Assembly (NCBI GenBank): GCA_021825655.1
Contig: JAKAGU010000009.1
Span: forward strand, 670 to 34,324
Length of the DNA: 33,655 bases
Source: a bacterium
GTDB lineage: Bacteria; Patescibacteriota; Doudnabacteria; UBA920
Reading direction: 5' to 3'
Of this stretch, positions 1 to 26,823 are shown in pieces. A program made the translations under genes and the position numbers. The notes beneath the pieces were generated by a model that saw only the letters and a program-made list of their open reading frames with translations, was not told the DNA's origin and searched no databases. Position 1 is the stretch's first letter. Each line of letters opens with the position of its first letter.

Positions 1-351
1 CTGAGGGTCGCGGCCGGTGGCAAAGGCATTGGGCGCACTGTCGTTGATAATGTAAATTTTTGGGGTTGGCAGTCCTCCGGCAATGCAGAGGTTTTCCACC
101 AGGCGGTAAAGTTCGGGGTTGGCGCGCCGGTCCACTGCCTGCGCCTGTGAAATGGCCAGGGTAATGGAATCCGAAAAATAGTAGCTGATTAAGGAGGTGA
201 AAATACTGAAGCCTACGGCGAAGTAGAGGATGTTGGCATCGCCGAAGCGGATGGAAAACGCCCAGCCAATGAGGGTAATAATAACCAGGAAAACGGAAAT
301 CAGCACCCAGCTTTCCAGTTTATTTTTTGCAATGTGTTGGTAAGTGAGCAT
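1..351 (-). CDS. htpX: HtpX-like M48 family metalloprotease, N-terminal part (truncated by window edge)
   Basis: Reverse-strand reading from ATG at 351 gives MLTYQHIAKNKLESWVLISVFLVIITLIGWAFSIRFGDANILYFAVGFS...SDSITLAISQAQAVDRRANPELYRLVENLCIAGGLPTPKIYIINDSAPNAFATGRDPQ, the typical HtpX N-terminus. It sits next to lemA. Confidence 0.9.
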   Translation of the reverse strand, partial: MLTYQHIAKNKLESWVLISVFLVIITLIGWAFSIRFGDANILYFAVGFSIFTSLISYYFSDSITLAISQAQAVDRRANPELYRLVENLCIAGGLPTPKIYIINDSAPNAFATGRDPQ

Positions 352-24479: not shown

Positions 24480-24563
24480 TCAAATTCCAAAACCCCTTAT
24501 GCGAGTAAGGCTAAGGGTAAGGAGCAGGCTTTGGATTTTAATAATAATGTTTTTTGGGCTCAT
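24480..24563 (-). CDS. Putative leader peptide A (27 aa)
   Basis: ATG...TGA encodes MSPKNIIIKIQSLLLTLSLTRIRGFGI; last codons overlap antiterminator segment 2 (AAGGGGTTTT), 30 nt before the terminator hairpin. Confidence 0.5.
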   Translation of the reverse strand: MSPKNIIIKIQSLLLTLSLTRIRGFGI

Positions 24564-24644: not shown

Positions 24645-24917
24645 TTAGCCGCCTTGGATGGGGCCGGGCTCGAAGCAGAGCTGCTTCGTTCGGGGGTTGA
24701 CGAATACCGTCTCCCCGGGTTTGAGCGTGATGGGCTGCTTGTCGCTGCTGCCGTAGCAAAATTTCCCGCAAGCGACTTTGAGTTTGAGCAGTCCGTTGTT
24801 GGAGACCACTTCGCCTTCGATTTCGCCGGTATACAACTGGCCGGTGAGCTTTAGGGTTAGCTGTCCTGGGGCGGCGAAGTCGACGTCGTTTTCTACCGTG
24901 TAAACATGCACGGCCAT
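24645..24917 (-). CDS. Gene B2: uncharacterised 90-aa protein
   Basis: MAVHVYTVENDVDFAAPGQLTLKLTGQLYTGEIEGEVVSNNGLLKLKVACGKFCYGSSDKQPITLKPGETVFVNPRTKQLCFEPGPIQGG; SD AAGGAGG. Track start at 25157 is too long. Confidence 0.7.
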   Translation of the reverse strand: MAVHVYTVENDVDFAAPGQLTLKLTGQLYTGEIEGEVVSNNGLLKLKVACGKFCYGSSDKQPITLKPGETVFVNPRTKQLCFEPGPIQGG

Positions 24918-24934
24918 CTGTTTTTCCTCCTTGG

Positions 24935-25081
24935 TTAGACTCCCATCAGAAACGGGATGACCCTGGACGGGTCCTGGTGGGGGTCTTGGTTGTCGTTGCC
25001 GGCGTTCCAGTACGGAATAGCCGGAAAATTGGTGCGGTACTCCTGGGTGGGAGCGGGGCGTTCTGTGGATTTGGGGTTCAT
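24935..25081 (-). CDS. Gene B1: uncharacterised 48-aa Pro/Asn-rich peptide
   Basis: MNPKSTERPAPTQEYRTNFPAIPYWNAGNDNQDPHQDPSRVIPFLMGV; GGGAG 7 nt upstream of the ATG; gene B2 starts 17 nt after its stop. Confidence 0.5.
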   Translation of the reverse strand: MNPKSTERPAPTQEYRTNFPAIPYWNAGNDNQDPHQDPSRVIPFLMGV

Positions 25082-25199: not shown

Positions 25200-25280
25200 T
25201 TAAACCAAACTCTCTCTACGCCCGGCAGGGGAAGGAATAATAAGGCTAATAATGCTAATGAGAGAGAAATTGGAATACAT
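25200..25280 (-). CDS. Putative leader peptide B (26 aa)
   Basis: MYSNFSLISIISLIIPSPAGRRESLV; ATG lies 9 nt after the -10 TAAAAT; stop codon 16 nt before the terminator hairpin. Confidence 0.5.
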   Translation of the reverse strand: MYSNFSLISIISLIIPSPAGRRESLV

Positions 25281-25926: not shown

Positions 25927-25976
25927 TCGCCACCTCCGGCCCGGCTGTTTTCTTATAAACAGGCGAACCGCAAGCG

Positions 25977-26012
25977 GTAAAAGAAAAACCCTCCCAAGGG
26001 TTTGGGAGGGTT
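25977..26012 (-). terminator. Attenuator terminator C (upstream of gene C)
   Basis: Minus strand: AAACCCTCCCAA-accc-TTGGGAGGGTTT (12 bp) followed by TTCTTTT. Confidence 0.88.
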
Positions 26013-26035
26013 TAAAGATGCAAGTTTTTTCTATG

Positions 26036-26125
26036 CTATCTTTTTCCTGTCCCAAACCAAAGAGCCGGCTTCTTAGTGGAAGTCTTAGTCATGGCCTTAT
26101 TGGTTTGGGCAGCGAAGATATTCAT
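26036..26125 (-). CDS. Putative leader peptide C (29 aa)
   Basis: MNIFAAQTNKAMTKTSTKKPALWFGTGKR; ATG 9 nt after the -10 TATTAT; carries attenuator segments 1 and 2. Confidence 0.6.
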   Translation of the reverse strand: MNIFAAQTNKAMTKTSTKKPALWFGTGKR

Positions 26126-26134
26126 ATTGGGTTC

Positions 26135-26164
26135 ATAATAGGGCAAAATTAGGGGTTTTGTCAA
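26135..26164 (-). promoter_or_regulatory. Promoter C: TTGACA-N18-TATTAT (minus strand)
   Basis: TTGACA at 26164-26159 and TATTAT at 26140-26135. Confidence 0.75.
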
Positions 26165-26211: not shown

Positions 26212-26823
26212 ATGATTCTTTCCGACCGCGACATAAAAAAAGCCCTGGCTTCGGGCAGGATAAAAATTACACCCAAACCGGACTATAAGACCCAGCTGGG
26301 CTCTTGTTCCATCGATTTGCACTTAGGCAGTCATTTCCGGGTTTTTAAACACAGCACCCACCCATTTATTGATCTTAGGGGCAACATAGATACCGACAGT
26401 ATTATGAAGGAAATTGTAGTTAAAAAAGACGAGCCGTTCATTATGCAGCCCGGGGATTTTGCTTTGGCAACGACAGTGGAAAACCTGGAATTGGCGGATG
26501 ACATTTTGGGCAAGATTGAAGGCCGCAGTTCTTTAGGCAGGTTGGGGATTATTGTCCATGGCACGGCCAGTATTTTTGATCCCGGCTGGGTGGGTAAGCC
26601 CACCATGGAGCTGGGGAATTTGGGCGTCATGCCCGTGGCTTTGTATCCGGACATGCGGATTTGCGCTTTTACTTTTGAAGAAGTCACCAGTCGCGTGGAA
26701 GTGCCGTATAGGAAGAAGAAGGGCAACAAGTATGCGGGCCAGACTTCGCCGCTTGCTTCCAAGCTCACCCGCGAAGTCAGCAAAGGCATAAAAATGAAGG
26801 GCATCGGCGCCAAGGATTATTAG
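26212..26823 (+). CDS. dcd: dCTP deaminase
   Basis: MILSDRDIKKALASGRIKITPKP...CSIDLHLGSHFRVF...EGRSSLGRLGIIVHGTASIFDPGWVGKPTMELGNLG. Confidence 0.94.
   Translation: MILSDRDIKKALASGRIKITPKPDYKTQLGSCSIDLHLGSHFRVFKHSTHPFIDLRGNIDTDSIMKEIVVKKDEPFIMQPGDFALATTVENLELADDILGKIEGRSSLGRLGIIVHGTASIFDPGWVGKPTMELGNLGVMPVALYPDMRICAFTFEEVTSRVEVPYRKKKGNKYAGQTSPLASKLTREVSKGIKMKGIGAKDY

Follow-up and report, generated by a model that had tools for sequence, protein, structure and literature searches.

A probable ribosome-mediated transcription attenuator, one of three conserved leaders between rplA and dcd in a Doudnabacteria genome

The 33,655-nt stretch of DNA analysed here (the window) comes from a genome of 838 kb, and its rplA gene is 75-85% identical to the rplA of several MAGs, mostly named Candidatus Doudnabacteria, which places the genome in Patescibacteria of this type. 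The interval between rplA and dcd, both on the plus strand, holds three minus-strand units, each made up of a promoter, a short ORF, a terminator and a small gene; unit A adjoins rplA, unit B lies in the middle and unit C adjoins dcd (Table 1). Five genomes (that of the window, G000, and G001, G008, G009 and G010) share the arrangement rplA, A, B, C. The window has one further, fourth leader, MLLNKYKKIWSGFADAVILTPNRKGVF, at 27631-27504 on the minus strand; it has a 13-bp terminator and lies upstream of an NlpC/P60 gene (27477-26878), and MLITRNKQIWSSFA-like peptides are encoded near rplA in five other members of the order (L015, L027, L028, L090 and L091), several of them with a terminator. 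Since the peptide itself is conserved, this fourth leader may act through peptide arrest or as a Trp/Lys sensor.

Table 1. Features of the three leader units in the window.
Feature	Position	Strand	Evidence or remarks
Promoter C, TTGACA-18 nt-TATTAT	26135..26164	-	11/12 consensus matches; kept in G012
Leader C peptide ORF, 29 aa, MNIFAAQTNKAMTKTSTKKPALWFGTGKR	26036..26125	-	ATG at 26125, stop codon ends at 26036; kept in 8 other copies
Segment 1, CCCAAACCAA	26100..26109	-	Inverted repeat; 1:2 pairing p = 0.005 vs shuffles
Segment 2, TTGGTTTGGG	26051..26060	-	Member of both the 1:2 and 2:3 repeats
Antiterminator hairpin 2:3, GGTTTGGG...AAAGAT / ATCTTT...CCCAAACC	25999..26058	-	Arms 26058-26038 and 26019-25999
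Segment 3, CCCAAACC	25999..26006	-	In terminator 5' arm and loop; sequence, repeat search
Intrinsic terminator 3:4, AAACCCTCCCAA-ACCC-TTGGGAGGGTTT	25986..26013	-	12 bp, loop ACCC, then TTCTTTT; 100% identical in G012
Gene C, 169 aa	25417..25926	-	Downstream of leader C; GGAGG Shine-Dalgarno
Leader B peptide ORF (Ile leader), MYSNFSLISIISLIIPSPAGRRESLV	25200..25280	-	Promoter 25317-25290, terminator 25184-25160; 11 related leaders
Genes behind leader B: 48-aa ORF (25081-24935), 90-aa ORF (24917-24645)	24645..25081	-	90-aa protein without a family match
Leader A peptide ORF (Leu leader), MSPKNIIIKIQSLLLTLSLTRIRGFGI	24480..24563	-	Terminator 24461-24429
Gene A, 73 aa	24133..24354	-	Behind leader A; 45% identical relative in G016

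A promoter, a short ORF, three competing helices, a terminator and a gene with a Shine-Dalgarno (SD) sequence are directly visible in unit C. A preliminary description of this DNA had proposed a 29-codon leader ORF, a 10-bp helix between segment 1 (codons 6-9) and segment 2 (codons 22-25), a 12-bp terminator and a divergent dcd, and each of these was recovered, the helix as an inverted repeat; dcd is divergent from leader C because it starts at 26212 on the plus strand. The alternative 2:3 pairing that it put forward also exists, but segment 3 had been placed one nucleotide off, at 26005-25998, and the pairing is longer than described: it is an imperfect 21-nt repeat, in which an AAAGAT/ATCTTT top helix stands above the GGTTTGGG/CCCAAACC base and the hairpin extends around the stop codon. 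The 152-nt leader C RNA folds with -53.2 kcal/mol, compared to -30.5 ± 4.0 for shuffled sequences (z = -5.7). No promoter-like site was seen on the minus strand between the terminator and gene C. What the preliminary description had overlooked were the likely Lys/Thr/Ser control codons, the likely leaderless start and the fact that A, B and C form a conserved set.

A scan of the regions around rplA and dcd in members of the order yielded leader C nine times, in eight species (G000, G012, G001, G008, G009, G013, G014 and, twice, G010), and all of these copies keep the promoter, ORF, anti-antiterminator, antiterminator and terminator. The other copies are preceded by TTGACA-15..18-TANNNT or a near-match, and those adjoining dcd are divergent from it. 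The copy in G012, of the same genus as the window, has 85% DNA identity to it and keeps the 1:2 helix despite several amino-acid changes in the peptide. Another member of this genus, G011, was discarded as a source of leader C; the first 140 nt of its contig (L007 1-140) are an inverted copy of the start of dcd that breaks off exactly in promoter C, a fold-back assembly artefact at the contig end. Leader B has 12 members including that of the window, marked by Ile runs (e.g. SIIISIIIP); leader A has eight, marked by Leu runs (e.g. LLLSLGLLL).

Helix sequences vary by genus (e.g. GGTTTGGG/CCCAAACC vs TTTGCGG.TGG/CCA.CCGCAAA) and the helices slide between genera, so that alignments misalign the pairs; we therefore used shuffle tests on each sequence rather than column-wise covariation. 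For 2:3, we folded each leader without segment 4, starting 42 nt upstream of where the stop codon ends and finishing at the terminator loop; the controls were 200 sequences per leader in which the upstream portion had been dinucleotide-shuffled. Capture of the terminator arm averaged 0.74 for leader C vs 0.39 for shuffles (combined p = 5e-9; p <= 0.05 in 7 of the 9 copies), 0.67 vs 0.38 for leader B (combined p = 4e-7) and 0.58 vs 0.37 for leader A (combined p = 7e-4). The 1:2 pairing likewise exceeded shuffles in leader C (combined p = 1e-8) and leader B (7e-4), and the seven non-redundant copies of leader C gave combined values of 1.6e-7 for 2:3 and 3.4e-7 for 1:2. The window's antiterminator (-22.3 kcal/mol with segment 4 absent) reaches only p = 0.030 when tested by itself, as might be expected if the helices were chance complementarity in a low-complexity stretch. 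That explanation is already contradicted, and we give it practically no credence, given the z-score of the whole fold, the recurrence of the helices in eight further copies and a combined p near 1e-7.

In G010 the leader C module is duplicated (L033 1978-2330 and L037 173-320), with a nearly identical promoter-terminator block between unrelated flanks, and behind the dcd-side copy in L033 there is only an apparent decayed coding remnant and no intact gene. The leader thus behaves as a module. The lack of an intact gene behind this copy, together with the strong terminator and the leaderless ORF, would also suit a free-standing small gene, producing a terminated 150-nt regulatory RNA or a functional 29-aa basic peptide, with gene C merely lying downstream. 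This is improbable in our view, since the leader C peptides vary in both length and sequence, with mainly their composition and codon position being kept, and since a free-standing gene would have no need of a precise, conserved antiterminator; moreover, gene C has an SD sequence and no promoter of its own, and what lies behind the G010 copy is a decayed coding remnant. In the middle unit, the leaders B of the window and of G016, which belong to different genera (25317-25160 on the minus strand and L043 2487 on the minus strand), have a 32-nt stretch in common. The two agree there at every specified base, synonymous positions among them, and even with 3 mismatches allowed the stretch has no match elsewhere in the order; in a pattern scan of the order, these two were the only high-identity leaders B. 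This identity suggests either strong constraint or recent transfer.

The preliminary description proposed that an early ribosome stall leads to antitermination and that full translation, or none, leads to termination, a scheme it considered untenable if 2:3 never competed with segment 1 masked. In our folding with segment 1 masked, 2:3 does compete. Before segment 4 is synthesised, a ribosome positioned anywhere from about codon 2 to codon 19 leaves the terminator 5' arm in 2:3 with a predicted probability of about 0.6-0.66, as against 0.00-0.01 when the ribosome is on the stop codon or close to it and 0.00 without a ribosome; this default-off state, clear in the window, is less so in some relatives (up to 0.61). 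In a stall scan in which the leading edge of the ribosome was taken to reach 14 nt beyond the A-site codon's first base, the antiterminator was predicted only for A-site codons of about 2-19, and the terminator for a ribosome on the start codon or beyond about codon 20, the stop codon included. The masked folding and the homologous leaders thus bear out the proposed logic, and together support the competition between 1:2, 2:3 and 3:4 and its coupling to codon position. At equilibrium, with the ribosome stalled at K14, the terminator is more stable than the antiterminator (-29.5 vs -22.3 kcal/mol) despite the masking of segment 1, so that antitermination would have to rely on 2:3 forming first, through the order of synthesis. 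In classical attenuators, synthesis order likewise decides between hairpins.

The choice between hairpins could also be made by a ligand or a protein, for example ribosomal protein L1, the product of rplA, with no role for translation. All three leaders do adjoin rplA, but there is no Rfam match above threshold, and both the primary and the helix sequences are too little conserved for a single binding site; the way in which the control codons track the RNA boundary (see below) points in the same direction, and we judge this explanation very unlikely.

The codons in the RNA-defined switch window depart from background. In leader C, Lys, Thr and Ser make up 21, 17 and 18% of them, vs backgrounds of 7.3, 4.8 and 5.7%, and by composition the likely control codons of the window's leader are the Lys/Thr/Ser codons among codons 8-19. 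Leader A has 38% Leu (Leu run p = 1e-19) and leader B 35% Ile (Ile run p = 1e-36). In 25 of the 29 A, B and C leaders, no more than 3 codons separate the RNA boundary from the final control residue of the rich segment (median difference over all leaders 0), a much closer fit than random or swapped boundaries give (p <= 5e-5), and containment of the control codons is stable for ribosome footprints of 10-18 nt. The definition of a control region requires that its peptide-side and base-pairing boundaries agree (PMC1183508); here these two properties, computed from different things, do agree. As the enrichment is equal for Lys, Thr and Ser, the signal of leader C is not pinned to one amino acid. 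Lys is the most consistent single residue, every copy having it among the few codons that immediately precede the boundary, and leader C appears to sense a shortage of Lys and/or Thr; it may be a multivalent sensor, responding to Thr and Ser besides Lys.

The same RNA logic would operate if the ribosome were arrested by its nascent peptide or by a drug, as in leaders of the erm, msr and bmr type, rather than by a scarcity of charged tRNA, and the near-identical leader B peptide of two genera would fit such an arrest. What the peptides of relatives have in common, however, is runs of one residue class and not one sequence, and the codons are biased to rarer synonyms, as theory predicts for the sensing of tRNA charging (PMC1183508): in the switch window, CTT and CTC, which supply 12% of the Leu codons in the genes of the window, encode most Leu residues, ACT (18%) most Thr and AAG (43%) most Lys. 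We therefore consider arrest unlikely and a response to tRNA charging the better description of leader C.

The leader C ATG is located 9 nt after the -10 box, and in nearly all leaders this distance is 6-11 nt, mostly 7-9. The ATG is so near the -10 box that there is no room for an SD site before the leader ORF, and the leader peptides are probably started leaderless; gene C, like the majority of the other downstream genes, has a GGAGG-type SD site. No clear -35/-10 match was seen by eye for leader A of the window or of G016. The pattern TTGACA-16..18-TANNNT-4..9-ATG occurs several-fold above a reversed control in most of 22 family genomes, suggesting that these bacteria have many leaderless genes.

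Leader C thus has a short ORF, predicted to be translated, between a promoter and a terminator and upstream of a gene, an antiterminator that competes with the terminator 5' arm, a 1:2 helix giving default termination (more weakly in some relatives) and control codons situated where stalling frees segment 2. On the computational evidence from comparison and folding, we consider it very probable that leader C is a ribosome-mediated transcription attenuator. For its operation, we infer leaderless initiation, the identity of the sensed amino acid and the induction of gene C by starvation. RNA polymerase would start 0-4 nt before the AUG, which would allow a 70S ribosome to initiate on the 29-codon ORF directly at the transcript's 5' end, with no need of an SD sequence. 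Where charged tRNAs are plentiful (most likely Lys AAG, with Thr ACU and Ser UCC), the ribosome would be expected to reach the stop codon and cover segment 2, allowing the 3:4 terminator to form. A stall at about codons 2-19 would instead hide segment 1, and 2:3 would pair before segment 4 is made; polymerase would then read into gene C, which would be translated from its own strong SD sequence. Without a ribosome, 1:2 would form and termination would be the default.

The leaders are conserved, but the uncharacterised small genes that they control mostly show no relationship from one genus to another. Gene C has no relative in Pfam, PHROG, PADLOC or the PDB, nor in scans of GTDB and IMG/VR; the only one found is a truncated, 86% identical protein in G012, and an AlphaFold model made without an alignment has a pLDDT of 33. 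The proteins downstream of leader C in other genera (74-99 aa) show no BLASTP similarity to gene C or to one another, and one has a weak zinc-ribbon match below the cut-off. Genes A and B, including the 90-aa protein, have no family match in Pfam, PHROG or PADLOC; the G016 relative of gene A has its own Leu leader. The otherwise unrelated proteins behind leaders A and B often end in an aromatic residue-x-V, GV, CV or CC, e.g. AWGV, AWAV, FLMGV, FAFGV, NFFGV, LWGV, PWCV and ECV (window 24133 and 24935; L043, L030, L032, L031, L037 and L039), which is possibly a shared C-terminal signal.

Neither genes A, B and C nor ten other downstream genes have a Pfam match for making, charging or transporting the sensed amino acid, and leader C does not qualify as an attenuator of an amino-acid biosynthetic operon of the thr, leu, ilv or lys type. 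None of the 22 family genomes, of which 17 are near complete, has either of the marker enzymes IlvD (branched-chain amino acids) and DapB (lysine), which were detected in control genomes; the bacterium is probably unable to synthesise lysine or branched-chain amino acids itself. Given the absence of IlvD and DapB and the lack of family matches among the downstream genes, these attenuators are unlikely to serve the synthesis of the amino acids they sense. A more speculative reading, to which we give somewhat less than an even chance, is that the rplA-dcd interval is a starvation-response island, in which three leaderless attenuators (Leu, Ile and Lys/Thr), kept in a fixed order and moving as modules, switch on fast-changing orphan small proteins for a non-synthesis response to the loss of host-supplied amino acids, e.g. 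scavenging, host interaction or dormancy.

Little is known about gene regulation in Patescibacteria, and our search of the open-access literature found no paper on leader-peptide attenuation in this group. Amino-acid-specific attenuators in bacteria without the biosynthetic enzymes tested would mean sensors of externally supplied nutrients. The conserved leaders also offer a route to the starvation-induced genes of these bacteria, which are not findable by homology because their proteins are unrelated between genera.

Leader C resembles the trp, his, thr, leu and ilv attenuators of E. coli in its leader peptide with control codons, its 1:2, 2:3 and 3:4 helices and its U-tract terminator, and also in that the control codons end where the antiterminator is released and are among the less common synonyms. 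It differs from them in having no SD sequence before the leader ORF, predicted to be leaderless, in its lack of an Rfam family (none of Thr_leader, Leu_leader, Phe_leader and the other leader families reached the gathering threshold, with weak sub-threshold scores for Phe_leader and Thr_leader), in its regulated gene, which is not recognisably biosynthetic, and in the absence of the pathway marker enzymes from the family. A leaderless, amino-acid-responsive attenuator has a parallel in the polycysteine short ORFs of mycobacteria, as these are presented where two later articles cite them (Canestrari et al., 2020, cited in PMC9094748 and PMC13236596); these are Cys leaders of mycobacterial operons, and they differ from leader C in phylum and in amino acid. 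The mycobacterial cys leaders are without obvious terminators (PMC1262725), whereas leader C has an explicit terminator/antiterminator pair. The ilvB-II and ilvB-OMG uORF motifs, like leaders A and B, combine a uORF rich in branched-chain residues with a terminator and were found by comparison, but they control ilvB (PMC10272879), and no branched-chain synthesis gene lies behind leaders A and B. In the drug-sensing bmrCD, msrD and mef leaders, a ribosome stall prevents terminator formation (PMC4191407, PMC10314930, PMC4335068), as proposed for leader C; unlike in those systems, no recognisable resistance or transport gene follows leader C, and the composition of its peptide points to particular amino acids.
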